DNA from: a virus | IMG/VR virus record: IMGVR_UViG_3300035212_003238 | Location: 1 to 21,231 of that record | Strand: one strand, 5' to 3' | Length of the DNA: 21,231 nt | Shown here: piece after piece, positions 1 to 20,078 of the stretch | Position numbering within the stretch: the stretch's first letter is position 1 | Layout: each line of letters starts with the position of its first letter | Translations under genes and position numbers: made by a program | Notes under the pieces: model-generated | Database searches by the model: none | Told to the model about the DNA's origin: nothing | Seen by the model: only the letters and a program-made list of their open reading frames with translations

Positions 1-2205
1 GAAAGCAGGATGCAATACAGGGAATTTTGTTCCTGTTAGCAATCTTCTACTTTTGAAAAGATGCATATTATCAATAATGAAGTTTAATTCAAATCCTCTA
101 AATTCAGGATTAGAACTTACAGCATTGTTATGTTCTTCATCAATGTATAAAGCATAGTCAGAAACCTTGCAATCTTCCCATTTTTTCATTTGCTTTAACA
201 AATTAGGGAAACTGCTATATGTGCATACAATCAATTCATCGCCTTCATGAACGTTCTTTTTATCTCTATAGAATACCGAAGCATTATAGTCATTGTCAAT
301 ATTCATCAGAAGCGGAATAATTGGCACGAGAATCAATCTTTTTCCTTTTGTGTGCTCACATATCCAAGTTGTTTTACCTTGACCTGTATTACCCCAAATA
401 ACTTGATTATCTCTATCGGGAATATCTAACTCATTTATATAATGACCATTCTCTAAGAAATATTCTTCAGTTATATTGAATCTTGAACGGATTTTCTCAG
501 GACTTAAAACTTTTATAGTTCTCAATCCAAATTTCCAAGTGTCATTCAAATAGATTTCATTTGAAACAAATTCACAAACGGATTTTAGCTTCTGAAGAAA
601 GTTCTTTTTTTCAAAGGTGGAAATTCTATTATCAATACGGATGATATCATTGAAATTTTCATCAGCAATTATATCTAAAAAATGATTCAATGAATCTTCC
701 TTTGAAATTGCGTATGATTTAGAATTTTTATAGTAGTAGTTAAAGTAATGGTAAATATTTTCATTTGAAATTGATTGGAAAATATTATTAGCTTCATCTA
801 CTATCTTATTGAGCGTTTTATTTAAGTCTCCACTAAAAGTTCCCATTTCGAGAACTTTCATAGAATTCTCATTAGCCCATTTGATAAATGATTCTTTTTT
901 GGATTTTAATCCTTCTTCATTTATAACCTTTACAATTCCAAAATGGATGTTGCTATCTCCATAAATTCTATCAACAATTTTATATAAAGAATCATCAAAA
1001 TCAAGAATTGCTTCCAAGAATTTTAAAACAGGTTTCTTTAGAATCCCCTCTTCTTTAGAAATTCTTGCAAACATGCTTATCTTCTTATTTTTCTCATAAG
1101 GTTTGCCTTTGATGTTATTCCAAGTATATTCAAGTTTCAAGTCAATATCACTTGAATATTGTTTGTATAGAGAATAGATAGTATAATCTGTATCTTTTGA
1201 AATAATCTTTCTTAATCCGAATTGATTACTATAATATTTTTTAATATTAGAAACAATTTCAGATTTAACTGCATAGATATCTCTATGCTTAAATAAGGCA
1301 GGGTAGTTATTTACATTTTCAATCAAATAATTTAAGGCATCATCTAAATTGATACCCATTTGATTACAAAATACAAAATAGTCGAAGTAGAATTTGTAGG
1401 AAATGTGGTTGTTAGACCAAGAGCTATCTTTCCTATAAAGAATGTTTAATTCATACTTTAGAACATCTGAAACAATTTCATAAGGAACTCCGCTTGTTTC
1501 GACAGTAACATAGTTTTCAGTTTTAGGTTCAACTGCATCAAAAGGAATAATATCTTGTTCATTTCTTATAAAAATTGTTGAGTCATATGGTAATACATTA
1601 CATCTCGTAATATCTTTTGTTTGTGGGTCGATTACAATATTCCATTGTAAAAACATTTCATTTAAAGCTTTCCAAGTAGAGCTGAAATTGTTCAGATTGA
1701 TGTCGGTAACTTTCACAAGAAATCCTAAACCATCTCCACCGAAAGAATCCCAAACGGCTTTAACAAATTTTAAGCTGTTTGATGATAATTGTTTTTTAAC
1801 ATATTCTTTTGCCTCTTTATCATTTGAAGCTTTGCCTGAATTTATCAATTTGGAAAAATCATCAACATCGCAATAAATATATCCTGAAGGAGCTTGAATT
1901 TTATCCTTCATCCTTTTTTCTTCTACGAAACAATTCCATGTAACAACAAGACATTCTTTTTGCTTCACATGGGTATAATAGTTTCTTTCAATGAATTTAA
2001 AAGTTCTTTCCTTTGAATCCCAAAGGCGGTCTTTGAATCTAATCAAAGGATTCTTCTTACCACCTGTTTCAGGATTGAATTTACAATCGGAAATTAAATC
2101 TTTTTTAGGGTTATTTTGTATGTAGCTTAATGCTTCATCAATAGTAAAGCTGCCAATAGGTTTTGAACTTTTATCTAAACATTCAAAAGTTGATATTTTT
2201 TGCAT
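1..2205 (-). CDS. Primase-helicase-like replication protein (partial, C-terminus off the left edge)
   Basis: The frame is open without stops from an ATG at 2205 to base 1, giving 735 residues with the C-terminus missing. An in-frame TAA lies just upstream of the ATG, which fixes the start. Residues about 85-215 match the BT4734/VirE_N primase-like domain: an acidic CDVDDF motif (112-117), a Gly-rich SFGGDGLGFLVKV segment (154-166), and DPQTKDITRCN (193-203) followed by PYD. A helical middle (about 230-570) may hold a primase C-terminal region. The end has a Walker A GNTGQGKTT (605-613), a Walker B/DEAH-like IDEEHN (688-693) and a motif III-like LTGT (723-726), as in SF2 helicases. Known family members occur in Bacteroidota mobile elements and phages. 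The inferred role is priming and unwinding at phage replication forks. It is last in the minus-strand unit, behind its own promoter-like sequence. The family call is by motif reading only. Confidence 0.8.
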   Translation of the reverse strand, partial: MQKISTFECLDKSSKPIGSFTIDEALSYIQNNPKKDLISDCKFNPETGGKKNPLIRFKDRLWDSKERTFKFIERNYYTHVKQKECLVVTWNCFVEEKRMKDKIQAPSGYIYCDVDDFSKLINSGKASNDKEAKEYVKKQLSSNSLKFVKAVWDSFGGDGLGFLVKVTDINLNNFSSTWKALNEMFLQWNIVIDPQTKDITRCNVLPYDSTIFIRNEQDIIPFDAVEPKTENYVTVETSGVPYEIVSDVLKYELNILYRKDSSWSNNHISYKFYFDYFVFCNQMGINLDDALNYLIENVNNYPALFKHRDIYAVKSEIVSNIKKYYSNQFGLRKIISKDTDYTIYSLYKQYSSDIDLKLEYTWNNIKGKPYEKNKKISMFARISKEEGILKKPVLKFLEAILDFDDSLYKIVDRIYGDSNIHFGIVKVINEEGLKSKKESFIKWANENSMKVLEMGTFSGDLNKTLNKIVDEANNIFQSISNENIYHYFNYYYKNSKSYAISKEDSLNHFLDIIADENFNDIIRIDNRISTFEKKNFLQKLKSVCEFVSNEIYLNDTWKFGLRTIKVLSPEKIRSRFNITEEYFLENGHYINELDIPDRDNQVIWGNTGQGKTTWICEHTKGKRLILVPIIPLLMNIDNDYNASVFYRDKKNVHEGDELIVCTYSSFPNLLKQMKKWEDCKVSDYALYIDEEHNNAVSSNPEFRGFELNFIIDNMHLFKSRRLLTGTKFPVLHPAF

Positions 2206-2266
2206 TTTGATACTTTTTGCTTTTTATAAATAACCCTTCCATTAAGAAAATCGGAGAAATTCTCAA

Positions 2267-2297
2267 CAAAGATAAAATCTTTTTTCTTAAAACCAAA
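2267..2297 (-). promoter_or_regulatory. Bacteroidota-type promoter for the primase-helicase gene
   Basis: Reading the minus strand, TTTG (2297-2294) is followed by 19 bases and then TATCTTTG (2274-2267). This fits the Bacteroidota primary-sigma consensus TTTG ... TAnnTTTG with the usual spacing. Transcription would begin near 2260, leaving a leader of roughly 55 bases before the ATG at 2205. The rest of the 2206-2326 gap is AT-rich and shows no RNA gene or convincing terminator. Confidence 0.6.
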
Positions 2298-2326
2298 AGA
2301 TATTTATTAAAATTTTTTGAAGACTC

Positions 2327-2653
2327 TTAAATGCCTTCAGTCAAATATTTCTTATATTGACTTTTGCTTATTTTCTCATAAGCCTTTTCTTCAATAGTTC
2401 TATGAGCGGATTCTATGGTAGTAAGGAATCCGTATCGTTCTTCCTCTTTTTTACTTTTGGAAGTTTTACTTTTCAAATATTGTACGTTTAACCAAAAGTG
2501 ACCTTTTTTCTCCCATTCAATCTCAATAACATATTTGTATTGCTTAAATTCACATAAGAATAAATCTCCAACTTTAATAGTGTCGAATTTCTTTTTAGGA
2601 ACTTCTTCAACAATAATTTCTTCAGCGATAACTTCTTTTTTCTTTCTGCCCAT
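2327..2653 (-). CDS. Small charged hypothetical protein, 108 aa
   Basis: I do not recognise this protein. It begins with a basic MGRKKKE stretch and an acidic EEIIVEEV stretch (residues 1-22, probably disordered). A short beta-rich segment follows (about 24-60, pattern KVGDLFLCEF...YVIEIEW), which could be a small SH3-like fold. The end is a lysine/glutamate-rich helical tail (about 64-108). The start codon lies two bases after the TAA of the Nudix gene, so the two genes are almost certainly co-transcribed and probably translationally coupled. No catalytic motif, cysteine pair or membrane segment is visible. Small basic or acidic proteins of this kind are common in phage early regions, and a nucleic-acid or host-protein-binding role is possible but unsupported. 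Coding is likely because the frame fits tightly between neighbours and shares their codon use. Confidence 0.75.
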   Translation of the reverse strand: MGRKKKEVIAEEIIVEEVPKKKFDTIKVGDLFLCEFKQYKYVIEIEWEKKGHFWLNVQYLKSKTSKSKKEEERYGFLTTIESAHRTIEEKAYEKISKSQYKKYLTEGI

Positions 2654-2655
2654 TT

Positions 2656-3111
2656 TTACAATTCTAATGATTTAATAACCCTTTTCACTTCATTAAACAT
2701 TTTTACTTGAGTTTCATGTATTTTAAACTCCCCATCAAAAATTGAATTAATATCTATCCATTCGATTTTATCAAATTCGGGTAAAGATTCCCCATTTTCA
2801 GTTTCAAAAAAAGTATTACATTTTAAATCCTTAAACTTGGTATCGGATACAATAGCCAAATAAGGTTTCAATATTTTTCTCTTACTTTTATATAATTGAC
2901 TTTCCAAACGATATACCTTACATTTTTTGATATAATCTGTATCAACGTTTACTTCTTCCTTTAGCTCTCTTAAAGCAGTTTGATAGTCATTTTCTTCATC
3001 TTCTTTTTTTCCTTTAGGAATAGACCATTCATTCCCTGAACGAGTTGCCCTCCCCATTAGCACACAATTAGAAGGATGGTGAAAAATTACAAATCCACAT
3101 GATGTTTCCAT
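2656..3111 (-). CDS. Nudix hydrolase
   Basis: This 151-residue protein has the length of a single Nudix domain. The Nudix box spans residues 34-56: Gly34, Glu40, Arg48-Glu49 and Glu52-Glu53 match GX5EX7REUXEEXGU, but the last glycine is replaced by Asn55. The preceding WSIPKG (29-34) is the form seen in Ap4A/RNA-cap-type Nudix enzymes. Known members hydrolyse nucleoside diphosphates linked to another moiety (dinucleoside polyphosphates, ADP-ribose, mutagenic nucleotides, RNA 5' pyrophosphate) using Mg2+ bound by the box glutamates. The substrate cannot be read from the sequence. The gene starts 12 bases after the metallophosphoesterase stop and runs directly into the 108-aa gene, so it belongs to the same unit. 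It would act in the cytoplasm on nucleotide or RNA 5'-end pools. Confidence 0.9.
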   Translation of the reverse strand: METSCGFVIFHHPSNCVLMGRATRSGNEWSIPKGKKEDEENDYQTALRELKEEVNVDTDYIKKCKVYRLESQLYKSKRKILKPYLAIVSDTKFKDLKCNTFFETENGESLPEFDKIEWIDINSIFDGEFKIHETQVKMFNEVKRVIKSLEL

Positions 3112-3123
3112 TATTTATTTTTG

Positions 3124-3870
3124 TTATAAATAGTACAGTTCATCAATATCTAACAAAACTGCTTTAACTTTTTCTTCAACTAATTCATTATTAGAACTAT
3201 GAAAATGTCCATAGAACCAATATTTAGGCATCAATTTATCATAAAACTTTTCATAAAGGTTTTGTAACAAATTTCTTTCGAGAACCAAATCATAAATAAG
3301 CATATCATCATTTTTTGCATATTCTGTTACAATATGGTTAAAATGTTGAGGATAAAACATTTTTGGTGCAGTATGGGTTACAACAATGTCTATTTGTAAT
3401 TTTTCAAGGATGTTATCTATTTCCACTTCATTATAATCAAATTTTTCATTTTCCCACCATAAATTTCTTCCGATGACAAGACTTCTTCCTTTTGAAATTC
3501 TTCTATCAACAGAAACTGCTCCACCTATACAAAGCACGTTATGAGAATTATTTTGAAGTATTGAATAGTCCTGTAAGAAAATTATATTAGAATAAGGATT
3601 TATACTTGAAGCATAAAAATAACTTGGGTCATCATGATTCCCTCTAATGACATATAGAAAACTATTTTTCTTTTTTAAAATTGAAGATAAGTGTTTTAGT
3701 CTTTGAGATTCTTCATCTTTTTTCAAATAACCTATACCAAAATCCCCTACTTGAATAAGGTTTACATTTGTAATATCGTTGCCTTCAAAATGGTTTATTA
3801 TTACATCCCAATTTCCATGTATATCCCCTAAGAAGCTTAAAGGATTTTCATTTATTCTTAATATGTTCAT
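3124..3870 (-). CDS. Calcineurin-like metallophosphoesterase
   Basis: This 248-residue protein has all the canonical metal-binding blocks in order: GDIHGN (15-20), GDFG (42-45), GNHDD (77-81), VTHTAP with His166 (164-169) and GHFH (221-224). A GGAVSVDRR segment (116-124) and a WWENE segment (138-142) are also present, as in single-domain bacterial and phage phosphoesterases. Such enzymes use a two-metal centre to cleave phosphomonoesters, phosphodiesters or dinucleoside polyphosphates. The substrate here is unknown. It is the first gene of the minus-strand unit, 21 bases downstream of a well-formed Bacteroidota-type promoter, and is followed by a Nudix hydrolase. The pair suggests joint handling of nucleotide signals or RNA/DNA ends during infection. 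A bacterial protein Ser/Thr phosphatase role is an alternative. Confidence 0.92.
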   Translation of the reverse strand: MNILRINENPLSFLGDIHGNWDVIINHFEGNDITNVNLIQVGDFGIGYLKKDEESQRLKHLSSILKKKNSFLYVIRGNHDDPSYFYASSINPYSNIIFLQDYSILQNNSHNVLCIGGAVSVDRRISKGRSLVIGRNLWWENEKFDYNEVEIDNILEKLQIDIVVTHTAPKMFYPQHFNHIVTEYAKNDDMLIYDLVLERNLLQNLYEKFYDKLMPKYWFYGHFHSSNNELVEEKVKAVLLDIDELYYL

Positions 3871-3975: not shown

Positions 3976-5799
3976 ATGCAAAAGAAAATTAATTATTATA
4001 CAAGAGATTTTGCAGGAATCCGTGCAGAACTAATTAATTATACTAAAAAACATTTTCCTAATACTTATACAGAATTTGATGATGCCTCAATAGGTATGCT
4101 TTTGATAGAGTTGAATGCAGCTTTAGGCGATATGCTTTCATTCAATATTGATAAAGTAGCTCAAGAAAACTTGATTAACTATGCTCAAGAAAGACGTTCA
4201 ATTTTAGCATTAGCAAGAACATTTGGGCTTAGAGTTCCTTACAAAAGACCTGCAGTAACTATTTGTGATTTTAGTGTGGAAGTTCCTCCAAATTCGGATA
4301 CTTTTGATTTGAATTATGCTCCTTTGATTATCAGAGGTGCTGAAGTTTTAGGTGGTGGTCAATCTTTTGAAACATTATACGATATTGACTTTTCTTCACC
4401 TTATAATGCTCAAGGCGCATCCAATAGAATTATTATTCCAAATGTAGATAGTGGAGGTGGTATAGCTTCTTATACTTTGACAAAAAGAGAATTGGTAGTT
4501 GCAGGGAAAACAAAATTTTTCAAAAGAGCTATTACTCCAAGTGAAGTTACTAAATTCTTTGAAATAGACTTACCTGATAGTGATGTATTGTCTGTAGAAT
4601 CAATTATTTCTTTAGATGGAACTAACTATCAAAGACTTCCAACCTTATCAGAACAAACAGACCCAAATAATCTTTGGTATAATGTTGATTCTTTAGCTGA
4701 AAGTAAAATTTTCATAGAGAAGCCATTGCTTCCTTCGGATAAGCAAGGTGTATTGGTAGGTAGTTGGGAAAACATTACAAGAAGATTTATGTATGAATAT
4801 TCTGATAGAGGATTTGTTACTATCAGATTTGGTAATGGTGTTCAAGATACTTCTACTTCAAGCGAATATGTAACTGATTCAGATGTATTTTTGAAATCAA
4901 TACAGGATTATGTATTTGATAACTCATTGGGAGATATCCCTAAAGCTAATTCTACATTATTTGTAAAATATAGAGTAGGTGGAGGTTTAACAAGTAATAT
5001 TGGAGTTAACACTTTAACTTCATTAGGAAATTATACTATTTTCGTTACAGGGCAAAATAGTGGTGCAAATCAAAGAGTAAAAGCTTCTTTAACAGTAAAT
5101 AATCCATTGCCTGCATTTGGAGGTTCTGATGAACCTTCAGTTGAAGAAATGAGAAATATCGTAAGGTATAATTTTGCTGCTCAAAACAGATGTATAACTC
5201 TTCAAGATTACTACTCAAGGATTTATCAAATGAGTGGTAAGTTTGGTGTTCCATATAAAGCTTCTGTAGCTAAGATTGCTAATAAGGTGGAAATATCAAT
5301 TCTTGGGGTAAATTCAGATGGAAAATTGACAAATCAATCAACCAATACAATGAAAGAAAATCTTTCAACGTATCTTTCAAAATTTAAATCTTTGAATGAC
5401 TATATTTCAGTTAAGGATGGTAAAATATTGAATATTGGTTTTGAATTTGATTTATTCATTGACCCCAACTTCAATAGAAACGAAATTGCTTCTGAAGTGA
5501 TAAATGCTACAAGTAATTTCATTCAGGAACAAAATTTAATAATGGGTCAAGACATTTACTTATCACAACTTGTTGAAATTGTTAACAATATAGGTGGGGT
5601 ATTAAATGTTATTGACTTTAGAGTTTTTAATAAAGTCGGATTCGGTATATATTCATTGAACACAACAGGTCAACCATTGACAGATGCAACAACAGGTCAA
5701 ATTGATTTATTGGGTCAAAATGCAATATTTTCGGATTACGATGAAATTTTTGAAATAAAATATCCCGAAAAGGATATTAAAATAAGATTCTCAATTTAA
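3976..5799 (+). CDS. Baseplate wedge protein, T4 gp6 / P2 gpJ (Baseplate J) family
   Basis: At 607 aa this is close to T4 gp6 (about 660 aa). The N-terminus (residues about 8-90) has the family's opening: a DFAGIRAELINY helix, a TEFDDASIGMLLIELNAALGD segment in which each wedge subunit's early helices pack, an ERRSILALARTFG helix, then YKRPA before the first beta domain. A central beta region (about 100-370) follows. The C-terminal part (about 385-560) begins with a NFAAQNRCITLQDYYSRI segment, the usual Baseplate-J motif, and ends with alternating beta strands and helices. In T4, gp6 dimers form the ring of the inner baseplate and clamp the wedges. Here it is the first gene of the plus-strand operon and transcribes away from the early unit. 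There is no Shine-Dalgarno sequence, only an A-rich leader. This is the firmest structural assignment in the window. Confidence 0.88.
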   Translation: MQKKINYYTRDFAGIRAELINYTKKHFPNTYTEFDDASIGMLLIELNAALGDMLSFNIDKVAQENLINYAQERRSILALARTFGLRVPYKRPAVTICDFSVEVPPNSDTFDLNYAPLIIRGAEVLGGGQSFETLYDIDFSSPYNAQGASNRIIIPNVDSGGGIASYTLTKRELVVAGKTKFFKRAITPSEVTKFFEIDLPDSDVLSVESIISLDGTNYQRLPTLSEQTDPNNLWYNVDSLAESKIFIEKPLLPSDKQGVLVGSWENITRRFMYEYSDRGFVTIRFGNGVQDTSTSSEYVTDSDVFLKSIQDYVFDNSLGDIPKANSTLFVKYRVGGGLTSNIGVNTLTSLGNYTIFVTGQNSGANQRVKASLTVNNPLPAFGGSDEPSVEEMRNIVRYNFAAQNRCITLQDYYSRIYQMSGKFGVPYKASVAKIANKVEISILGVNSDGKLTNQSTNTMKENLSTYLSKFKSLNDYISVKDGKILNIGFEFDLFIDPNFNRNEIASEVINATSNFIQEQNLIMGQDIYLSQLVEIVNNIGGVLNVIDFRVFNKVGFGIYSLNTTGQPLTDATTGQIDLLGQNAIFSDYDEIFEIKYPEKDIKIRFSI

Positions 5800-5801
5800 T
5801 T

Positions 5802-6089
5802 ATGGCTTGTAGTACTTGTAAAACAAAAAAGAACATTAACTTAAAACAAAATTTAGGCTCTGATGGAGCTAATAATTTAACCGAATTAATTAACGATACA
5901 CAAGGAAGTGGAGTAGTCTTTTCAGGTAAAGTTGGAAAATTCTTCTTCTTTTTAATTTTATTAATTTGTGCAATTACACCAATTATAAATATTGCTGCAA
6001 TGTATGTTTTTTATATTGCAGTATACGGAAAAAATTCAAAAAAACAAAAGAATGTCACGGAACATACGAATACAGACGAAACCGAATGA
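5802..6089 (+). CDS. Small membrane protein with an N-terminal CxxC, 95 aa
   Basis: I do not recognise this protein as a known family. It opens with MACSTCKTKK, giving a CxxC pair at residues 3 and 6 near lysines. A hydrophilic stretch (10-44) leads to a strongly hydrophobic block (about 47-75, rich in Phe, Leu and Ile, with a proline at 60) that could be one long or two short membrane segments. A charged tail follows (77-95). It starts two bases after the baseplate wedge gene and overlaps the next gene by 38 bases in another frame, which argues that both are genuine and coupled. A membrane protein inside a baseplate operon might help DNA passage through the inner membrane, or be a holin-like or assembly factor. 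None of these can be chosen from sequence alone. Confidence 0.7.
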   Translation: MACSTCKTKKNINLKQNLGSDGANNLTELINDTQGSGVVFSGKVGKFFFFLILLICAITPIINIAAMYVFYIAVYGKNSKKQKNVTEHTNTDETE

Positions 6090-9000
6090 TGGAGACAAGT
6101 ATGTAAAAGTTAAACTTGACCATTCATTTGATTTCCTTGAAATATTATCATTAAGATTAACCCAAGCCGATGTATACAGAAAATTTGCAGCGGACTATGG
6201 TGTTATTGTAGGAAGAGTTATTGCTAATGGGGGATTTGGTGTTCCGAATGCCAAAGTTTCTGTATTTATACCATTGGATTCTAATGAAAGTAATCCTTTG
6301 ATAAAGCAATTGTACCCATATGAAAAAACAACTGATGTTAATAGTGATGGGGTTAGGTATAATCTGTTAGAAGATTTACCTCAAAAGTCATGTCATACTC
6401 CTGTTGGAACTTTCCCAAATAAAAGAAAAGTTTTGGATAACGATGTTTGGCTTGAAATATACGATAAATATTATAAATTTACAACCTCTACGAATTTCGC
6501 AGGGGATTTCATGCTTTTTGGTGTTCCCACAGGAAATCAAAATATGCATATGGATGTGGATTTAAGTAATATAGATTATATTTCTTTAAAACCATATGAT
6601 TTAATTGAACAAGGCTATACTGAAAATCTATTTGAATCAAAAACTACGTTTAAAAGTGGAAATGATTTAGATACTTTAGTTCAAGTACAATCAAAAGATT
6701 ATTCTGTAAACGTATTACCTTTTTGGGGCGATTTAGAGGAAAACGAAGTTGGTATAAATAGAGTGGATTTCACGTTGAATACAGAAATTATTACTAATTC
6801 AACATTCTTTGGTTCGATTTTTACTGATTCAAAAAAATCTTCAATACGAAAAAAATGCCAACCAAGAAAAACGCTTGGAAGAAATTGTGATTTAGCAACA
6901 GGTACAGGCACAATAGAGATGATACGGAGAGTGTCTGACACTTCTAATGAAGTTGAATACATGGAAATTGAATCTAAGCAAATTGATGAAAATGGTAATT
7001 GGGCTTTTACTATTCCAATGAATCTAAATAGATTAATTACGGATGAATTTGGCAATTTAATTGCCTCTGAAGACCCTAATGTGGGAATTGGTACAACTGC
7101 TAAAGTAAGATTTAGAATGTCTTTGAATGAGCGTAGAGATGATATAAAGTTTAGAACTGCTCATTATTTAGTGCCAAATATGTATAATAATTATCAATTT
7201 GGTAATGATACTGAAGACTTTGACTTTTTTGAAATGCGTTGGAAAAAAGCTTATACTGTAACTAATTATATCCCAAGATATCAAAAATCTACAGGTAGTG
7301 CAACATTATTACATACAGGAATAAAAGATATAGGCGAATGCGAAAACACCCAATCTTTCCCTTTTAATAGATTGAAATTAAATCCTTCTTTCTTCTTTAC
7401 AATAATTTGCATTTTTATTACTTTATTTGCAGTAGTAATAGACTTAATAAACAGATTAGTGGGGTTTATTATCTTTGATGTAGTAATGTCTTTTATATGT
7501 TTTGTTAAACACCCTTTTAGTAATAAACGAAGAAGTGCATGTAGATGTAAAGCTTGTTATGCTTTAAATAGTGGATTACAAGACCCCCCTGCTCCAACAA
7601 TACCTGTAGATTGGATTACTACACCATGTAATCTATGTATTGACTGTGCAGCATGTTATAATGCAGATGACGATGACAGTTCTTCAAGTTCAACTTATTC
7701 TTTTAAAGCAGTAACAACTTTAAATACTCCTGATATAAACATTGTAAATAATGGAGGTATAAATGGATTGCAACCTAATTATATAACTATAATACCTGTA
7801 GTTAATGCCGATTTCAGTTCAGTACTTCCTTCGCCTTCCACTACAGGTTTTTCATTTCATTTAGAAACTAATGCAAATGGGGAATTATCAAAAGTATATT
7901 TGATAAATCAAAGAGGGTTAGGTACATATCCACCTTATAATTCATTATATACTTTAAAATTAACCCCTGCTTCATATCCAAATTTATCTTTTTGGAACAC
8001 TGCAATAGAAGTAGAATTCACTTTACAGCCAAATGAAATTATTATATTAAATGATGTAAACAATGCTACGCCATCACCTCCAATATATTCTATTGATAAT
8101 ACTCAATATACTTATACAGGAGGAGGGCAAGATGTAATTTTTCAAGTTACAATAGATTCATATGGTCAATTAGATAATATAAATATTTTTACAGGAGATG
8201 AAGGTGCAGGCTATACTGCATATGTAGATATTTTTCCATTAATGGAAACGTTTACATTACCTTCAAGTATAATTGGTGGTACAAATAAAATAATTGCATT
8301 TTCTACTGCTGCATTTCAAACCTTGCAAGGTATAGGCACTCCTCCATATTATGTGGATTGCGATTCTTTTAATATAGATGATTGTAAAAATCAATGTCAG
8401 TCTTGCCCTGTATCAGTAATAGAATTACAATGTAATGATATTTTCTATGCTGATGCTTATGATTGGGCAGCTTGTGTTAAAGAACTATTAGCCGAAGAAC
8501 TTGGGTTGGTAAAATTTCATTTTTATAATGATTGGGTAATAGGCTCATTATATTCAGTGCTTTTTGATTATAAATCACGATTTAAGAAAAAAGGTAAATC
8601 TTTGGAAAGATTTTGTGATTATGATTGTAGAGCTCCTAATGTAGATGTTCCTACATTTTGCCCAACAACTCCACCTGAAAAAGACCCTAATTTTAAACAT
8701 CGAAGAAATCGTTGTTACGATTCTTATATAGCTGAAAGTTATATTTTTAATGACGAACCTCGTACTACTTGTTCTGAAGATACTCTCTTATGGAATATGG
8801 CTACTATTAATTCGCCAAACGGTTCACCAAATGGCAGAGGATTAATAGTTGAGCATAACGGATTCTTTTACTATACTGCAAGACATGATATTGAAATAAA
8901 TTCAGTTAATGGCAGTAATGTGGCATCAAATAATTTAACTGTTTCAGAAAAGTATAAATTACTTTTTGCAACAAATATTATAGAGCTTGGAAGTATGGTT

Positions 9001-9606
9001 ACTTGTGATAGAGATGGAGAGCCTTTTGTAATAAATAATGTAGAATCTACAACTTATCAATTAGATAATGGTACAAAAGTTTTATATGATTTTACAGACT
9101 GTTTCACTTCTTGCCCTATAAACAGATATGGAACACAACTTATGAGTCAAGCAGGTATAGAGATTGCATTTGCACAAGCTGCAGATAATGCACCTATTTA
9201 CACAGGAGATGATGGAGAATTATACGAACTTATAGGTGCTGAGAGTCAAGTACCTGATTATGATGATAATAATGGTGTTATTATTTTTGATAGGAATGAT
9301 ATAGTATTAAGAAGGTTACTCTGTGAAAACTTTAATTATTATGGAGTTTCAGGGACATATAATTCAAGTGAAGTTCCAACAGATTATCCATTAGCTCCAC
9401 CACCTGCATATTTAGAAGAAATTTCATTAGATTTATCTTCTCCTAATGATATATTAGAATTTACAATAGATGAATGTGTTGGTTTGGATGATGATGCAAA
9501 ACCTTCAAAAAAAATGCCACCATACTACATGTATTTTGGTATCAGACAAGGGCAATCTTCTTTGGATAAATTAAGAAAAAATTACTTTGACAGATGTATT
9601 GATTAA
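6052..9606 (+). CDS. Large Cys-rich tail/baseplate protein with an internal hydrophobic hairpin, 1184 aa
   Basis: I place the start at the ATG at 6052 (MSRNIRIQTKP) rather than 5992, because the extra 20 residues lie mostly inside the upstream gene and look unlike a protein start. Residues about 50-165 resemble a carboxypeptidase-regulatory-like beta sandwich (VGRVIANGGFGVPNAKV, then AGDFMLFGVPTG). A very hydrophobic 445-485 block looks like one or two membrane helices. Cys clusters follow (CRCKAC near 496, CNLCIDCAAC at 526-535), then a DDDDSSSSS linker and a beta-rich, Pro/Asn/Thr-rich region (about 550-766). More cysteines come after it (about 769-786, CKNQCQSC). The C-terminus ends in MPPYYMYFGIRQGQSSLDK. 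No enzyme motif is visible. By position it is probably a baseplate-associated virion protein. The membrane-type segment is unusual and could insert into the host envelope on contact. Confidence 0.75.
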   Translation: MSRNIRIQTKPNDGDKYVKVKLDHSFDFLEILSLRLTQADVYRKFAADYGVIVGRVIANGGFGVPNAKVSVFIPLDSNESNPLIKQLYPYEKTTDVNSDGVRYNLLEDLPQKSCHTPVGTFPNKRKVLDNDVWLEIYDKYYKFTTSTNFAGDFMLFGVPTGNQNMHMDVDLSNIDYISLKPYDLIEQGYTENLFESKTTFKSGNDLDTLVQVQSKDYSVNVLPFWGDLEENEVGINRVDFTLNTEIITNSTFFGSIFTDSKKSSIRKKCQPRKTLGRNCDLATGTGTIEMIRRVSDTSNEVEYMEIESKQIDENGNWAFTIPMNLNRLITDEFGNLIASEDPNVGIGTTAKVRFRMSLNERRDDIKFRTAHYLVPNMYNNYQFGNDTEDFDFFEMRWKKAYTVTNYIPRYQKSTGSATLLHTGIKDIGECENTQSFPFNRLKLNPSFFFTIICIFITLFAVVIDLINRLVGFIIFDVVMSFICFVKHPFSNKRRSACRCKACYALNSGLQDPPAPTIPVDWITTPCNLCIDCAACYNADDDDSSSSSTYSFKAVTTLNTPDINIVNNGGINGLQPNYITIIPVVNADFSSVLPSPSTTGFSFHLETNANGELSKVYLINQRGLGTYPPYNSLYTLKLTPASYPNLSFWNTAIEVEFTLQPNEIIILNDVNNATPSPPIYSIDNTQYTYTGGGQDVIFQVTIDSYGQLDNINIFTGDEGAGYTAYVDIFPLMETFTLPSSIIGGTNKIIAFSTAAFQTLQGIGTPPYYVDCDSFNIDDCKNQCQSCPVSVIELQCNDIFYADAYDWAACVKELLAEELGLVKFHFYNDWVIGSLYSVLFDYKSRFKKKGKSLERFCDYDCRAPNVDVPTFCPTTPPEKDPNFKHRRNRCYDSYIAESYIFNDEPRTTCSEDTLLWNMATINSPNGSPNGRGLIVEHNGFFYYTARHDIEINSVNGSNVASNNLTVSEKYKLLFATNIIELGSMVTCDRDGEPFVINNVESTTYQLDNGTKVLYDFTDCFTSCPINRYGTQLMSQAGIEIAFAQAADNAPIYTGDDGELYELIGAESQVPDYDDNNGVIIFDRNDIVLRRLLCENFNYYGVSGTYNSSEVPTDYPLAPPPAYLEEISLDLSSPNDILEFTIDECVGLDDDAKPSKKMPPYYMYFGIRQGQSSLDKLRKNYFDRCID

Positions 9607-12974: not shown

Positions 12975-13877
12975 ATGGCAACAGGCGTATTTGGAACAAA
13001 AAGAAGTGCAGATTTCAGAGTACAGGATTGTGAAATTTTTTATATGTACAGTACTGATAGAGCAACTAACACCACTGAAGTTTTATCTTTGAATCCTGCA
13101 CAAGTTTTAGAAAAACTTGATGACCCTACAGATTCAGGATTAATTCTTGGAGGATTATATAATCTTATTTTACCAACTTCTATATTTAATAAAAAGGGAT
13201 TTTATAATATTGTTATAAGACCAAGAAGATTAAGAGTAAGAATTACAGATTGCGGTGTATTAGCTTCAAAACCTGATATCAGAGGCGTGTTATTTGATTT
13301 ATCGTCAATTCCTGCTGAAGATGTTTCTAAATTCGAAAATAGTAATTTAATTGGATATAGAATTGAGTATGTAACTACTAACACAAGTGCAGAGGAAAAG
13401 AAAATTCAAAACCTATTCAGAATTATCACTTCAAACAATAAAGTAGAACCTGTAAGTGAAACTTTGAACAATACAAATCAAAAATCTGTAAAATATAGAT
13501 TGAATGACAATAGTACTTTAGTTTTTTGTACAGTAACTCCATCTTCCGCACCATCTGTAAGACCAAATGGTGTTCCGTTTATAGGGTTGCCAAATCAAGA
13601 AGTATTTTTGATTCCTACGACATTTGACCCAATTCATTTGGAAATCGAATTAGTAGAACACGATTTTGATACGTTGGCTATTGGATTATTTGGTAATCAA
13701 ACTAAAGCTGTTGCAGATGGAACAAGAACTTACTATAATGAGAATAACCAAATCTACAAACAGTTTACTGAATATGTTATCAAGGATGAGGTTGGTGCAG
13801 AAAAATTGTATGAAGTAAAAGAAGAAAAAGAAACAATAGACTTTTCAAAAGATTTCAATAATATTAGTAACTTATAA
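12975..13877 (+). CDS. Putative baseplate/tail structural protein, 300 aa
   Basis: I do not recognise this family. The N-terminus (MATGVFGTKRSADFRVQDCEIFYMY) is basic and looks well conserved. Residues about 55-110 give clear beta strands (LYNLILPTSIFNKKGFYNIVIRPRRLRVRITDCG). A middle section rich in Asn, Ser and Thr is followed by PNGVPFIGLPNQEVFLIPTTFDPIHLEIELVEHD, and the last 60 residues are charged and helical (LYEVKEEKETIDFSKDF). The size is near T4 gp8 (334 aa), but I see no motif that would prove the link. It follows the only notable gap in the early part of the structural operon and may start a second transcription block. Its TAA overlaps the next ATG, so it is coupled to the 892-aa baseplate protein, which supports a shared assembly role. 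Confidence 0.7.
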   Translation: MATGVFGTKRSADFRVQDCEIFYMYSTDRATNTTEVLSLNPAQVLEKLDDPTDSGLILGGLYNLILPTSIFNKKGFYNIVIRPRRLRVRITDCGVLASKPDIRGVLFDLSSIPAEDVSKFENSNLIGYRIEYVTTNTSAEEKKIQNLFRIITSNNKVEPVSETLNNTNQKSVKYRLNDNSTLVFCTVTPSSAPSVRPNGVPFIGLPNQEVFLIPTTFDPIHLEIELVEHDFDTLAIGLFGNQTKAVADGTRTYYNENNQIYKQFTEYVIKDEVGAEKLYEVKEEKETIDFSKDFNNISNL

Positions 13878-16555
13878 TGGCTGAAAAATATGTAGGAGAA
13901 GTTCCACACAAAACTAATGACTTAACACTAAACGATGCTGCAACTGTAATATCTACAATTGGCGGAGTGGAAGTCACTACAAATTTAAATCCACCAAGAG
14001 TAAGAACATTTTTACCTCCAAAATTCTCTACGTTTTACACTTTAGAAAACGTAGAGACTGTTTCTTTGAAGAATACTGTATTCAATCCTGAGAAGTCATT
14101 AAAACTTTATTTGGATAAAACAAATCCAAAGTATTTTTCAAAGTATAGTTCTCTTTTGGAATTAGTAAGAGTTTCTTTGGAAACAATTCTTTTAAAATAT
14201 CCTGCATCCATATACTCAAGAACAGATGTATTAGGTATAGTAGGTCAAAATATAATCAATTCGGGATACTATTTTATTGATGAAACAACTACGTTTTCAG
14301 CAAACGTAAGTTTCTTTTCAAATCCTTTTGGAATTTATCATCAAAGCAATCCTAACTATAAATTTCCTGATGATAGAATTCCTTCTTTAAGAAATTTAAC
14401 TAAAAATTTTAATAAGTATGAATTAGTTGTAGATGGGATAAAATATCCTATTTTGGAATTCACCCCATCACAAACTACAAGTAACGACTTTGTTACAATA
14501 AAAATCAAAGGAAATCCTTTTGACCTTGGAAGTAGTTCTAAAGAATTCTATATCAAACCTATGGATTCTGAGATAAATCTGTTCTATGATTCCTTAGATG
14601 ATTTTGAAGCATATCTTTTGAACAAAGATGATAATTTCAGAGCAATCTTTCAAGCTACTGAAGAAGTTGATGGCGGATTGTTTTTGGATTATAACTTAGA
14701 ATTACAATTTCCAAAGGCAGATAATTATAACCTTGATATAGTTTCAGCTTTTTATGATATCTATGTAGCAGACTTAGTTGAATTTGCTAAAAAATTTGAT
14801 GATAAAAGGGGTAATCTCCTAATGAGGAAATTAGTCCCTGAAAGTGTACAAAGTGTTACTTTGGAAGATATTAATGCAGAATATCCCACTTATGGCGAAG
14901 TTAATAGGCTTTTAATAGTTTATGGAAGAAGTTTAGATGATATAAATTATTATATAGAAGGTATCAGAACTTTGAATTCCGTAACTTATACCAAAAGAGA
15001 TAGTATGCCTGAAGCATTGCTTTTTGATTTTATTAAATCTTTAGGATGGGATATGGATATTAATCCGCCACTTCCAAATGATTTACTAAGATTATTAGCA
15101 TTAAATTCGGCTTGGGTATTCAAATCAAAAGGAACAAGAAATGCTATAGATTTTATTTTAAATTTCTTAGGGATTCCTCAAGACATAGTTGATTTTAATG
15201 AATATGTCATCAGGGCAAAAAAACCTGTGGACGTTGATAAATTAAGGTTTTATTATAACCTTATAAATCCAAATGTTACATTTGATATTAGCACTCTACC
15301 TATTGATGAAGAAGGTTATCCAAAATTTTATCCCGATAATGAAATAGATTATTTCCAAAGATACGGTGAATTAGATAGAGGTTTATCGTATTTTTATAAA
15401 TATGTTAATTTATTCCCAAGTGAATTTACAGGAACTACTGTAACTTATACTGAAACTGTAGAAAGTTATAAAGTTCTTTTTGAACAAAATTGGGAATTGA
15501 CAGGAGTTAATTTAACCTATGATATAGTTGATAACGATTTGGTTCATAATGAATGTTTCACAGTTTCAGGTGAAACAACTGTAGACCCTTATCCTGAAAT
15601 CTTTTTGGATGATTGCGGATGTCCACTTCCTATCTCAGATAAAGTTTTAAAAATTTGTTCTACGCCTACAATATTCACAGGTTGTACCAATATTATATTA
15701 GATATTTGGTATGACTGTGTAAGTGGAGATACTGCAATTTTACACATAAATTCTTATGGAGGAAAAGGTGTAGTTTCAATTTCAGGTGCTACAGATGGGC
15801 AAGTTGTTTCCACAGGAGATACTTTTGCGATTTATGGAACAGATGAAGATGGATGTCTTTCTGATATTTATAATATCACAATTGATTGTCCTGACCCATG
15901 CTTGACAACAGACTTATTTGCAACTATAACATATATTTGTAATCTTGATGAATTTGGTCAAAACGATGGAACAGCAACTGTTTCAGTTACCCATAATGGG
16001 GTTTCTTCAACAGGAATTCAAGATGGCGATATTGTTAATGATAATAACTATGCGGAAATAACAATTTATGATATTTATGGATGTTCATTAACCGAAAAAG
16101 TATTAATTGATTGCCCTCTACCTGAACCTGTTGAATGCGAAGCAATAACAATAGAAATGTCACTTGAAACGACAAGTGTTTCTTTAGAATCACCGTGTTC
16201 AGGTAAATTAAATGTTGTTTATGATTTAGACCCTCTACCTGCAGGTCATATTATAGACCAAGTAACTTTATTTATTACAGGTAGCGGAGGGGATGATATA
16301 TACGTTGTTGGATATCCTCTTCCTGTACAAGCAACATTTAACTTGCTTGCAGGAGTAGAAACAATTGATTTAGATTTCAGTTCTTTGTGCAATGATGGAG
16401 ACCCTGTACCTACTGAAATAAAAATAAATGTAGGTGTTCTTGTAACCTTTGCAAATGGATGTGAATATACTGAATCTTTTGCAGATTTAACAGTTAATCC
16501 AAGACAATTAGGTGATAATGACTCACAAACAAAAATAACACTACCAAATCCATAA
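13877..16555 (+). CDS. Baseplate protein with P2 gpI / T4 gp7-like core and SprB-like C-terminal repeats, 892 aa
   Basis: Residues about 1-330 are a mixed alpha/beta region opening with a conserved-looking FLPPKFSTFYTLENVE. Residues about 335-440 resemble the P2 tail protein I family: paired helices (GEVNRLLIVYGRSLDDINYYI, EALLFDFIKSLGWDMD), then LLALNSAWVFKSKGTRNAIDF ending in LGIP, where the W...KGT...I...LG pattern is diagnostic. Proteins of this family (T4 gp7 counterpart) join the gp6/gpJ wedge. From about residue 600 the character changes to Cys- and Gly-rich beta repeats: two SprB-like units (607-672 and 679-747), each closing with IDCP, then one more beta domain (about 750-875). The result is a wedge core fused to adhesin-like modules. 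It overlaps the upstream stop and lies one base before the next gene. Confidence 0.72.
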   Translation: MAEKYVGEVPHKTNDLTLNDAATVISTIGGVEVTTNLNPPRVRTFLPPKFSTFYTLENVETVSLKNTVFNPEKSLKLYLDKTNPKYFSKYSSLLELVRVSLETILLKYPASIYSRTDVLGIVGQNIINSGYYFIDETTTFSANVSFFSNPFGIYHQSNPNYKFPDDRIPSLRNLTKNFNKYELVVDGIKYPILEFTPSQTTSNDFVTIKIKGNPFDLGSSSKEFYIKPMDSEINLFYDSLDDFEAYLLNKDDNFRAIFQATEEVDGGLFLDYNLELQFPKADNYNLDIVSAFYDIYVADLVEFAKKFDDKRGNLLMRKLVPESVQSVTLEDINAEYPTYGEVNRLLIVYGRSLDDINYYIEGIRTLNSVTYTKRDSMPEALLFDFIKSLGWDMDINPPLPNDLLRLLALNSAWVFKSKGTRNAIDFILNFLGIPQDIVDFNEYVIRAKKPVDVDKLRFYYNLINPNVTFDISTLPIDEEGYPKFYPDNEIDYFQRYGELDRGLSYFYKYVNLFPSEFTGTTVTYTETVESYKVLFEQNWELTGVNLTYDIVDNDLVHNECFTVSGETTVDPYPEIFLDDCGCPLPISDKVLKICSTPTIFTGCTNIILDIWYDCVSGDTAILHINSYGGKGVVSISGATDGQVVSTGDTFAIYGTDEDGCLSDIYNITIDCPDPCLTTDLFATITYICNLDEFGQNDGTATVSVTHNGVSSTGIQDGDIVNDNNYAEITIYDIYGCSLTEKVLIDCPLPEPVECEAITIEMSLETTSVSLESPCSGKLNVVYDLDPLPAGHIIDQVTLFITGSGGDDIYVVGYPLPVQATFNLLAGVETIDLDFSSLCNDGDPVPTEIKINVGVLVTFANGCEYTESFADLTVNPRQLGDNDSQTKITLPNP
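15695..15892 (+). repeat. SprB-like protein repeat, copy 1 (in the 892-aa baseplate protein)
   Basis: The unit encodes residues 607-672: LDIWYDC at the start, a Gly/Ser-rich middle (GGKGVVSISGATDGQVV), then YGTDEDGC and a closing ITIDCP. It matches the layout of SprB repeats from Bacteroidota surface adhesins: a GG turn, a strand pair, D.xGC, then a last strand. Similarity to copy 2 is at protein level, not as repeated DNA. Confidence 0.55.
15911..16117 (+). repeat. SprB-like protein repeat, copy 2 (in the 892-aa baseplate protein)
   Basis: The unit encodes residues 679-747: ATITYIC, then DGTATVSVTHNG, then ITIYDIYGC and closing LIDCP. It has the same order and spacing of elements as copy 1 but little nucleotide identity, so the two are anciently duplicated or independently acquired domains. 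Confidence 0.55.
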
Positions 16556-16556
16556 T

Positions 16557-19427
16557 ATGGCTTGTTTACAGAACGTAAGAATAAAACAAACAGTAACTTA
16601 TGATTCCACTCCCGATTTAGTAAATGGGTTGATTCAGGGACAAGTAGATGTTGAAATTTTCAACACCTATGGATTTCCTATTTCAGGTGAAGTTATTGTG
16701 GATAGAGTAAGGGATTTACCTGTTGTAAGTCTTGAGGATGCCTCCATTTCTGAGACACAGTATATTACTTCAACAGGAGATACTTTTAATTTCAATTTTT
16801 ATTATCCTTCAACCGAACCTATTAATGTTGTTATAAACATAAAGGTAAAAGTAAGAATTGAAGACTGTTTTTACGAACATACTTGCAGCCATATATTGTT
16901 GACACCTAATCCAACCGAAGATTTTTCTTATTGTGATGTCTTTGTTCAAGGATATGAAGTAATTTCAGGTTGTACTAATCCCCTTTATTATGAATTCAAT
17001 CCTAATGCAAATTTTGATGATGGCAGTTGTTCTTTATTAAAGCCTGTATATGGTTGCACAAATCCTCTTGCAGTCAATTATAATTCTAATGCGGACTATA
17101 ATGATGGAACTTGTATTTTTGCTTCAGGATGCACTAATCCTGTTGCAGTAAATTATGACCCTATTGCAGTAATAGATGATGGCTCATGTGAATGCGGTGA
17201 TATAAACGTTCAATTGAACTTTAATCAGTTATCAGGGGAAAGTTTTGTTATAGAATCTAATTGCCAATATCTTTTTGAATTTGATTGGTTTGCTCAAATT
17301 GATTGCGGAAAGCTTATAGAATACCTTCAAACTGATACAAGAACTATATTAGAAGTTTTAGGAGATTTAGCTGTCAATGCTCAGGCATTTGTATTAACAG
17401 ATGAAGAAGGATTGATATTAGATTATACAGGTGGAACTATTTCTTATACAGGAGATACCACCTATCTTTTAGCTCAAAATGAAAATCTATATACTTTTGA
17501 TTCAGAAGTTGTTCCTTATGGAATTGGTACAACAGGTTCTGAAGAAGATTGCGCTTTTGTCAATGATTTAATTTCAACTGAATTAGGAATAGATTGTCCT
17601 TCAAAAGAAGATTTAGAAAAAAGATTCAAAGGTTCTTGGACAAGGAGTACATTTATTTTAAATGCTGATTTAGTCGGTTCTTTTACCAAATTCAATTTGA
17701 ATTTTGCTAATTTCAATTTTGGAGCTTGCGTTCATTTGGATAATGTGAAAGTTTCAAAATTATGCAGTACCCCTCAAAATAAATGCGTAATCATACCAAG
17801 TCAATACGGTTTAGAATTTGATAAGGTTATTGATAATAAGAAAGGATGGTTGTACTCTGAAGAATTAACGAGTAGAACTTATGATTTTAAAAATCAGGAG
17901 ACTGATTATCAAGATTTCGATTCAAGATTAATTTTGAATACTAAAGAATTGGAATTGACTATCAATCCTGTAAAATATATTGAATCCGATGTACTTTCTT
18001 ATTATGAGTACTATCAGAAATTCTTTGTAAGTGTTGATGAAAGATATACCAATTTAAGTAAAGATTATATTACTTATGAAGCAATAAATCCTATTGGAAG
18101 GCAATTTACAAGACAGTATCCATTTTTAAATACTATATATGAGCAGTATTTGGATGGATTAGATTGCGCTCCAACGAAAGCTTTAAATTATCCTTATGGT
18201 ATTGAAATAATAAGCCGTACAGGGGATTATTGGTATTCTGCAGTAAAACAATTGCTTCCTGCTACTACAATTTGGAATGAAGCTCAATATACCTATAAAA
18301 ACAACATATTCCACAAACCTAAGCATAACTATAAAAAATATACTTTAGGCGGAGAAAGTGATACAGATATTGATTCACCTTCAGGAGTAACTGTTGTTTG
18401 TACCGTTGTAAGTGATAAATGTCTATCAGAAAGCTTTGATAGTATTGATGGATTCCTAAGCTTTGACTTTGGAAATGTTCAATGTACTTCTATTTATACA
18501 GGTGGTACAATTGGATATTCAGGTTCAGGTGGAGAAGGTAACTTCTCAGGGAAAATTATTCAATATTCTACAAATGAAAATGGTGAGAATACTATTGAAA
18601 ATTATTTTGGTTTCAATGGTTATGAATGTATAACAGGTGAACCTATTCCTACAGGTGATACTTGCGATACAGTAGTAATTGATGTTAATCTTTCTTATGA
18701 ATGTATTCAAGTTGAAAGTGAAAATACAGGATTTGCAGATGTAACATTAACTGTTTCAGGGGGTCAAGCACCATATATTATCACAGGATATTATTCAGGA
18801 ACTATTCTTACAGAAGGAGGAAGTGTTACTTTTGAAGCTGAACATGATGAAGTTATAATTATTTCTGTTGAAGATGCTAATGGATGTACAAGCACAAATA
18901 ATTTCATAGAGGTAGATTGTCCGATTCCTTTGGATAATTGCATTCCTGTTACTTGTGAAGGAAATCTTCCATTTGAATTAGAGGTTATATTAAGCAATTA
19001 TACATCAAGTTTAGGTGTTTATACATTAGAAGTTAATTTAACTTCTCCAACTTATACAGGTTCTTTGATGGGTAGTTATAAAATTTCAAATTTAGCTATT
19101 GATTCAATTGTAGCAACATTTCCAAGATATCATAATACTGCAAATTATACGCCCGATGTACAATTAAGTAATTATATGGAATTTGGATTTAATCAATTAA
19201 CTCCAAATGGGGATGCTACTACTGTAACAGCATCTGATTCACCTTGGTATTTATTGTTAACCCCTGCAGGATTTGGTGTAGATAATCCTAATTTTATAGA
19301 TGGAAATAATATTACTGTAGATATAGCTTTATTTGACGAAGATTATTGTGTACATAAAGCTTCTGTATCATTAACAATACCTACAGATGGTAATATAAGT
19401 ACAGTTACAACTTTAACACCTTTTTAA
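16557..19427 (+). CDS. Multidomain Cys-rich tail/baseplate protein with GCTNP and SprB-like repeats, 956 aa
   Basis: The N-terminal about 110 residues form a beta domain (VDVEIFNTYGFPISGEVIVD). Residues 138-158, 166-186 and 191-211 are three GCTNP...(D/N)DG(S/T)C repeats. A mixed domain follows (about 215-410), with cysteines and a FNLNFANFNFGACVHLDNVKV jelly-roll-like end, then a helical/beta region (about 415-600) containing YWYSAVKQLLPATTIW and a Tyr/Lys-rich KPKHNYKKYTL. A Gly/Ser/Thr segment leads to an SprB-like repeat (703-789) and a C-terminal beta domain (about 795-956). No enzyme motif or signal peptide is visible. The GCTNP and SprB modules are known from secreted Bacteroidota proteins and here suggest an exposed, host-contacting part of the virion. 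The gene starts one base after the gpI-like gene, with which it shares the SprB-like module. Confidence 0.7.
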   Translation: MACLQNVRIKQTVTYDSTPDLVNGLIQGQVDVEIFNTYGFPISGEVIVDRVRDLPVVSLEDASISETQYITSTGDTFNFNFYYPSTEPINVVINIKVKVRIEDCFYEHTCSHILLTPNPTEDFSYCDVFVQGYEVISGCTNPLYYEFNPNANFDDGSCSLLKPVYGCTNPLAVNYNSNADYNDGTCIFASGCTNPVAVNYDPIAVIDDGSCECGDINVQLNFNQLSGESFVIESNCQYLFEFDWFAQIDCGKLIEYLQTDTRTILEVLGDLAVNAQAFVLTDEEGLILDYTGGTISYTGDTTYLLAQNENLYTFDSEVVPYGIGTTGSEEDCAFVNDLISTELGIDCPSKEDLEKRFKGSWTRSTFILNADLVGSFTKFNLNFANFNFGACVHLDNVKVSKLCSTPQNKCVIIPSQYGLEFDKVIDNKKGWLYSEELTSRTYDFKNQETDYQDFDSRLILNTKELELTINPVKYIESDVLSYYEYYQKFFVSVDERYTNLSKDYITYEAINPIGRQFTRQYPFLNTIYEQYLDGLDCAPTKALNYPYGIEIISRTGDYWYSAVKQLLPATTIWNEAQYTYKNNIFHKPKHNYKKYTLGGESDTDIDSPSGVTVVCTVVSDKCLSESFDSIDGFLSFDFGNVQCTSIYTGGTIGYSGSGGEGNFSGKIIQYSTNENGENTIENYFGFNGYECITGEPIPTGDTCDTVVIDVNLSYECIQVESENTGFADVTLTVSGGQAPYIITGYYSGTILTEGGSVTFEAEHDEVIIISVEDANGCTSTNNFIEVDCPIPLDNCIPVTCEGNLPFELEVILSNYTSSLGVYTLEVNLTSPTYTGSLMGSYKISNLAIDSIVATFPRYHNTANYTPDVQLSNYMEFGFNQLTPNGDATTVTASDSPWYLLLTPAGFGVDNPNFIDGNNITVDIALFDEDYCVHKASVSLTIPTDGNISTVTTLTPF
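16968..17189 (+). repeat. Three GCTNP...DDGSC protein repeats
   Basis: There are three 21-residue units at 16968-17030, 17052-17114 and 17127-17189. Each starts GCTNP, has an N(Y/F)(N/D)P-like middle, and ends (D/N)DG(S/T)C. The two cysteines of each unit probably pair, and the acidic end may bind Ca2+. Spacers are seven and four residues. Such repeats are frequent in secreted proteins of marine Bacteroidota. The DNA copies are diverged. Confidence 0.8.
18663..18923 (+). repeat. SprB-like protein repeat (in the 956-aa protein)
   Basis: The unit encodes residues 703-789: LSYECI, then GFADVTLTVSGGQAPYIIT, then IISVEDANGCTS and closing IEVDCP. GGQAPY and DANGCT are the hallmark turns of the SprB family, making this the best-formed of the three copies in the window. 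Confidence 0.65.
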
Positions 19428-19430
19428 GAT

Positions 19431-20078
19431 ATGCCTTTTACTACTTTTGATGTTAATATATTTGGAACTTCTCATGTAGATTTAGATGGTTCTAATTCAA
19501 ATGGTTATTCTCGTGAATTTGTAATACATGTATTACAGGTTGAATGTAATCAAACTATTACTAACTTTGATATGTTTATTGAGTTTTATGTTTATCCCTT
19601 TAGAAAAGGTACTACTAATAGCCCTGTGACCCCTTCTCCAAATGGGTTATGGTTAAATGCATTTAATGTTGATAAAATGAAATTAAATGGTAGACCTCAA
19701 GTAATACATTTAGATACAATGACACCTGCTTCACCTGTAGCATTATATCCTACATGCTTTACATCTCCTGCTTTGCCTTGTCCATCACCTGCGGATATTA
19801 GATTATGTTCAATGGCATTTCAAACACCTATACCTATAGGGGTTACTCCTACAGGTTATGATGCAAATTACACTGACATGTATGATTTTGGAAGTAATGC
19901 TAAATTACCTGTGAACATAACAATTATTGCAGATGGTTGTAGATATAGTTCTGAAATCGGTACAACTATAAATATTTATACTGATTACAATACAGCAGAA
20001 GCCCTTTGTGGAGGTATAACAGTAATTACACCATGTTCAAATCCAATAGGTTTCAACGAAAAAATAACAATCTCATAA
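19431..20078 (+). CDS. Putative structural protein, 215 aa
   Basis: I do not recognise this protein. It is beta-rich with many Thr, Pro and Asn residues and six cysteines (among them PTCFTSPALPCPSP and TPCSNP), in line with the Cys-rich style of its upstream neighbour. The N-terminus (MPFTTFDVNIFGTSHVDLDGS) starts directly with a beta strand, and there is no signal peptide or membrane segment. The ATG is three bases after the preceding stop. It resembles the C-terminal beta domain of the 956-aa protein in general character (short strands, Pro/Thr loops) and may be a small accessory tip or fibre-like subunit. Only location and composition support this. Confidence 0.65.
   Translation: MPFTTFDVNIFGTSHVDLDGSNSNGYSREFVIHVLQVECNQTITNFDMFIEFYVYPFRKGTTNSPVTPSPNGLWLNAFNVDKMKLNGRPQVIHLDTMTPASPVALYPTCFTSPALPCPSPADIRLCSMAFQTPIPIGVTPTGYDANYTDMYDFGSNAKLPVNITIIADGCRYSSEIGTTINIYTDYNTAEALCGGITVITPCSNPIGFNEKITIS

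Follow-up and report, generated by a model that had tools for sequence, protein, structure and literature searches.

SprB repeats come from the gliding adhesins of Bacteroidota. A sequence-only reading of a viral genome fragment, a 21,231-base IMG/VR virus record analysed here over its whole length (the window), described three units of this type in two adjacent genes of the baseplate region. It proposed that the phage had captured a host surface module for cell attachment, or mimics a host adhesin that could serve as its receptor. This raises the question of whether the units are of SprB type, whether they belong to a phage tail, how long they have been there and what they might do for the virus.

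Three related units in adjacent tail genes

The genes on the plus strand from position 3976 onward form a tail module; all features described below lie on this strand unless stated otherwise. The module is marked by a baseplate wedge protein (3976..5799; PHROG 219, E 1.2e-16), which is followed in order by a 1204-aa protein (5992..9606), proteins of 543, 280, 283 and 300 aa, an 892-aa protein (13877-16555), a 956-aa protein (16557-19427), a 215-aa protein 3′ of the 956-aa gene (19431..20078) and a 694-aa protein. Only the start of the last lies inside the window, and its length was taken from the relative L002. The nearest named relative of the wedge protein is the wedge of Flavobacterium phage immuto, 30% identical over its full length (E 1e-61). 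The gene order is akin to that of immuto, and synteny was also found with more than 30 IMG/VR loci. The presence of a baseplate wedge gene and the conserved order of the tail genes identify the block as a phage tail/baseplate module, and the proposed placement of the units in the baseplate region is borne out by the wedge gene upstream and the synteny with immuto. The other end of the window (1-3870) carries a divergent block on the minus strand, with a NUDIX protein (2656-3111), a calcineurin-like phosphoesterase (3124-3870) and a 735-aa protein that matches BT4734-like_N below threshold.

The 892-aa and 956-aa open reading frames were both confirmed. The N-terminal part of the 892-aa protein (residues 1-590; 13877..15646) has homologues at the same gene position in L105, L118 and other loci (E ~1e-45), could be aligned with immuto gp109 and matches PHROG 718 weakly (E 1.2e-4). 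From its gene position, we infer that this is a tail-tip protein of the gpI/gp7 type. A tblastn search of named phages with the 892-aa protein gave no match. By eye, immuto gp109 (L005, 23255-27052) ends in apparent Cys-containing repeat domains, a region in which no SprB profile match was found.

The 956-aa protein has a body (residues 1-700; 16557..18656) in which residues 357-606 are homologous to proteins encoded by the downstream gene in many related phages, SprB-repeat proteins such as that of L104 among them. In L119, the gpI-like protein of the preceding gene is matched in its C-terminal part by residues 417-594, which suggests that domains are shuffled among adjacent tail genes. The 956-aa protein also contains three tandem Cys-rich repeats (residues 138-211; 16968..17189), read directly as type GCTNP..NYNP.A..DDGSC; in the form GCTNP.A.NYNP.A..DDGSC they match no Pfam family above cut-off. 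Similar Cys-rich repeats occur in virion proteins of Synechococcus phages and in one marine virus, and a 3043-aa protein of L141 has about ten such matches in addition to SprB repeats.

The three units, each about 75-90 aa long, were delimited by refined boundaries. U1 (residues 602-673; 15680..15895) and U2 (residues 674-748; 15896..16120) lie in tandem towards the end of the 892-aa protein, and U3 (residues 702-790; 18660..18926) lies in the 956-aa protein. The two landmark motifs are present as described in the sequence-only reading, with D..GC at residues 656 and 732 of the 892-aa protein and 773 of the 956-aa protein, and I.(V/I)DCP at 667, 742 and 784, respectively. The units are related to one another beyond chance. 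Local alignment scores were 56 for U1-U2, 66 for U1-U3 and 59 for U2-U3, against 29-31 ± 6 for shuffled sequences, and the observed scores were reached by 3, 0 and 1 of 1000 shuffles, respectively. The domains adjoining U1-U3 did not match the units at that alignment level. These include the C-terminal domain of the 892-aa protein (D3; 16121..16552), which is beta-rich in the model and without similarity to U1 or U2. Its counterpart at the end of the 956-aa protein is E4 (18927..19424). Both cysteines are invariant in a 12-row alignment of the units (C16 and C77); a fixed-column count recovered the first in 1 of 13 units because the loop that follows it varies in length.

SprB-type identity and predicted fold

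The SprB repeat is represented in Pfam by PF13573, with a curated cut-off of 28 bits. U3 scored 17.1 bits against this model (E 0.0043) and thus fell under the cut-off, while U1 and U2 gave no match. Whole-protein scans of the 892-aa and 956-aa proteins against Pfam, NCBIfam and PHROG likewise returned no SprB match at E 1 or 0.1. At the Pfam threshold, the proposed family membership therefore fails for the units of the window and holds only in relatives. Because the short Pfam model reaches U3 alone, we built our own bacterial SprB profile of 76 positions from 1179 repeats in 80 Bacteroidota genome loci. The loci were collected with a hand-written generic SprB consensus, and in three of the genomes the repeats are also recognised by the Pfam model.

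The SprB signal required short unit queries and these profiles. Among 563 open reading frames of the window and other phages, the bacterial profile found only U3 in the window, together with its copy in L002 (E 1.9e-4 and 3.9e-5, respectively). Cut out of its protein, U3 scored 22.7 bits against the bacterial profile and 26.7 bits against a viral profile, with the best of 500 shuffles below 10 bits; the bacterial match is significant on its own (E 4.5e-6 for 1000 sequences). The scores of U2 were marginal (14.9 and 10.3 bits; shuffle maximum 5.7-9.5), and those of U1 were not significant alone (3.0 and 4.6 bits). In the close relatives L169 and L170, which are 79-80% identical to the window in the adjoining 300-aa protein, U1 retains GGTPPYEI ... 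DSNGC and reaches 16-21 bits (viral-profile E 2e-5). A profile-profile comparison matched the unit family to the bacterial SprB profile with a probability of 96.8% (E 2.2e-10). The SprB-type identity thus stands for U3 and for the unit family as a whole, but not for U1 of the window taken alone or at the Pfam cut-off. U3 was recognised by its profile scores and its Ig-like model. The link of U1 and U2 to SprB is weaker and runs through U3 and near relatives: U2 adds a marginal profile match to its likeness to U3, and U1 resembles U3 and the U1 of relatives. Used as the only query, U3 recovered no relative from the bacterial genomes scanned, and a PDB sequence search with U3 gave chance-level matches only.

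The units do not make either protein a SprB gliding adhesin. Such adhesins are very large bacterial surface proteins, and the proteins described here have 892 and 956 aa and are encoded among the baseplate genes of a virus. No T9SS C-terminal sorting domain was found in the window proteins with Pfam or NCBIfam.

AlphaFold2 predicted six strands in each of U1 and U2 (mean pLDDT 73.6 over 307 residues, about 90 in U2) and a six-stranded Ig-like unit for U3 (pLDDT 86.4). The fold of all three units is accordingly described as a predicted Ig-like sandwich. The models are Ig/FN3-like, but they match other structures only weakly, as any sandwich of this size would. Foldseek gave no E-value under 0.001; for the 892-aa C-terminus, the best-ranking PDB structure was the grappling-hook adhesin of Aureispira, a member of the Bacteroidota (E 3.5e-3). 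Re-alignment of U3 returned PKD, FN3 and Ig folds (Z ≤7.8), which would fit any such sandwich, and no solved SprB unit was prominent. RemZ and other gliding proteins were not listed in this re-alignment, an absence that carries no evidence. The viral structural neighbours of U3 include A0A6J5LDA4 and A0A6J5MUM3 (TM 0.64 and 0.54, by query length), two proteins of uncultured Caudovirales phages that bear the name 'SprB repeat' in UniProt.

Repeats in related phages

Two scans of IMG/VR addressed the distribution of the repeats. The first used the SprB consensus, without the window as a reference, and yielded 80 loci, 37 of which encode a homologue of the 892-aa protein. The gene directly after this homologue carries SprB repeats in 30 loci, usually six or seven; several of these loci are near-identical, so that the number of independent cases is lower. 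The 37 loci contain 35 distinct repeat ORFs. All eight array proteins tested scored well above the Pfam SprB cut-off (E 3e-11 to 3e-26). Relatives above the PF13573 cut-off are L103, L104, L105, L116, L119, L101, L154, L147, L171 and L233. The 1096-aa SprB-array protein of L119 (6456-9743) also has a C-terminal DUF285 region (Pfam E 8e-65).

In the second scan, 80 loci, including the near relatives of the window, were chosen through the conserved 300-aa protein and not through SprB. SprB-bearing ORFs were found in 42 of them (39 at E <1e-6), and in none of the shuffled or reversed ORFs that served as controls. Where at least 7 kb of downstream sequence was available, 28 of 42 loci had a SprB-bearing ORF, directly after the 892-aa homologue in 12. 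Our profile is broader than that of Pfam, whose cut-off was passed by 2 of 8 second-scan proteins, with one more just below it. The main site of the repeats in these relatives is the homologue of the 1204-aa protein, which accounts for 32 of the 52 SprB-bearing ORFs; the others are at the 956-aa position or elsewhere, and no repeat was detected in the window's own 1204-aa protein. The 956-aa homologue in L169 has three units, as against one in the window. In L176, L194, L201 and similar loci, the 892-aa homologue is 2500-2800 aa long and no SprB repeats were detected.

The modules are gained, lost and multiplied across several neighbouring tail proteins of this phage group. They resemble a regular, interchangeable component of its host-contact apparatus.

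Candidate roles, host and precedents

A comparison of the window with L002 showed purifying selection on the units, with dN/dS values of 0.10-0.13 for U1-U3. The parts that follow them change faster, namely D3 (dN/dS 0.33; 73% identity), E4, the fastest-evolving part (0.39; 62%), and the 215-aa protein (0.35; 63%). The 1204-aa protein is 74% identical between the window and L002, and its neighbours are 86-98% identical. On balance, we consider it probable that U1-U3 are diverged SprB-type modules in the distal tail (baseplate or fibre) of a contractile-tailed phage, where such modules are gained, lost and multiplied, and that they most likely act as a stalk or spacer. The stalk or spacer role is favoured because the units are under purifying selection and the domains after them change faster. 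Each unit would act as a rigid element, a small sandwich held together by its two conserved cysteines. Units of this kind would extend the 892-aa and 956-aa proteins, presumably as parts of the virion, outward, carrying the terminal domains D3 and E4, and perhaps the 215-aa protein, to the host surface, which these parts would touch. The faster change of D3 and E4 could instead reflect relaxed constraint.

The units might also bind a host-surface ligand themselves, for example a glycan, as adhesive modules derived from or shared with host adhesins, and additional copies would then add avidity. SprB-type repeats are known in gliding adhesins, and both the arrays of six to seven units and the change in copy number between relatives (one versus three) are consistent with such a role. 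Ig-like phage domains that mediate cell binding exist (PMC13370021). However, the units evolve slowly relative to the domains after them, and a solved structure of the analogous BACON repeats suggested a linker that does not bind glycans (PMC6949934). We regard binding by the units as rather unlikely.

A stalk of SprB-type modules also has to be weighed against ordinary phage Ig-like domains, such as those of Hoc, decoration and whisker proteins of T4- and T5-like phages, whose resemblance to SprB would follow from the shared Ig fold. In these proteins, too, the Ig-like domains are encoded by phages, and their GGT.PYTY core is similar. Among the matches of the SprB consensus are decoration proteins and a neck-whisker protein of solved structure; those of the viral consensus comprise 424 phage records, the majority enterobacterial and many T4-/T5-like; and the Hoc-like family PHROG 2973 matches the viral arrays. 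We therefore compared the units with a coliphage Ig profile derived from seven T4-/T5-like phages among the viral-consensus matches. The bacterial SprB profile outscored it in 13 of 13 units and in 287 of 288 viral repeats, the latter, unlike the units, having been preselected with the SprB profile. Every unit (13 of 13) has the D.nGC cysteine, as do 96% of the bacterial repeats; the cysteine pair is present in 89% of the bacterial repeats, and coliphage Ig domains have neither. In L105, the Pfam SprB match (E 7.5e-24) exceeds the Hoc-like PHROG match (9.2e-13). Hoc, decoration and whisker proteins, moreover, belong to the head or neck and not to a baseplate block. Judged by these sequence comparisons, SprB repeats and phage Ig domains form one wide Ig-like family, and the window units fall on its SprB side because of their higher SprB scores and the D.nGC cysteine absent from coliphage domains. 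An origin of the units as ordinary phage Ig-like domains is distinctly unlikely.

The proposed capture of a host surface module can be judged by the distance between viral and bacterial repeats. The nearest bacterial repeats are 29-47% identical to the units. Across all viral repeats, identity to the nearest of 1140 bacterial repeats is at most 61% (median 42%), and the nearest neighbour of most viral repeats is another viral repeat. Any transfer, in either direction, was thus not recent, given the low identity to bacterial repeats, and recent capture from bacteria was rejected.

The host of the phage is probably a member of the Bacteroidota. This is indicated by the SprB-type repeats, the relation to immuto and the lack of Shine-Dalgarno-like motifs, which were found at 0 of 14 genes in the window, 2 of 68 in immuto, 18 of 44 in Mel-JY01 and 20 of 20 in enterobacterial phages. 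A Microcystis host is less likely, given the contrast between Mel-JY01 and the window in this count. The conserved 300-aa tail protein was absent from all 395 Bacteroidota genomes searched, a result that, without a positive control, has little bearing on the host. That a widespread group of Bacteroidota phages uses host gliding-adhesin-type modules as interchangeable baseplate parts, which interact with the adhesin or gliding system of the host at adsorption, seems to us very unlikely. Less probable still is receptor mimicry, in which the phage would display adhesin-like repeats to engage or imitate the gliding-adhesin machinery: SprB and RemA may act as phage receptors (PMC13288928) and the receptors of F. 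columnare phages likely belong to the gliding machinery (PMC7345892), but no sequence feature indicates mimicry, and scans of the phage repeat proteins yielded no secretion sorting domain above cut-off, Por_Secre_tail occurring only below threshold inside L147 and L177.

Diverged SprB-type modules in a stalk or spacer have their closest precedent in the BACON repeats of crAss-like phage tails. Tandem BACON repeats occur in or near tail proteins of crAss-like and other gut phages, the bacterial BACON domain was found to be a linker, and the C-terminus after the phage array is poorly conserved (PMC6949934). Both systems involve a Bacteroidota-associated domain, Ig-like by prediction in the present phages, that is arranged in tandem in or near the tail proteins of phages with a predicted Bacteroidota host, together with a poorly conserved C-terminus after the array, and horizontal transfer and duplication. 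What sets the present case apart is the SprB-type version, a different domain family with the D.nGC cysteine and several insertion sites per tail module, in phages of contractile-tail type from aquatic or mixed metagenomes. With the bacterial SprB repeat (PF13573), the phage repeats share the sequence type, the GG.PPY and D.nGC landmarks and the tandem arrangement, and relatives exceed the Pfam cut-off. Unlike bacterial SprB repeats, the window units are diverged and below the cut-off, and the repeats lie in phage tail genes, at one to seven per protein and without a T9SS sorting domain. Phage SprB repeats are already labelled automatically in UniProt; a search of open full text found no paper on SprB repeats in phage tails.

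SprB-type repeats, although usually read as a sign of gliding adhesins, are thus a recurrent part of phage tail modules, and a 'SprB repeat' annotation in a metagenome therefore cannot safely be taken as bacterial. With BACON as the first, they are a second case in which Ig domains of the Bacteroidota surface type occur in phage tails, and they come with a large set of loci in which module gain, loss and duplication can be followed. Contact between phages and the gliding surface of their hosts thereby becomes testable.
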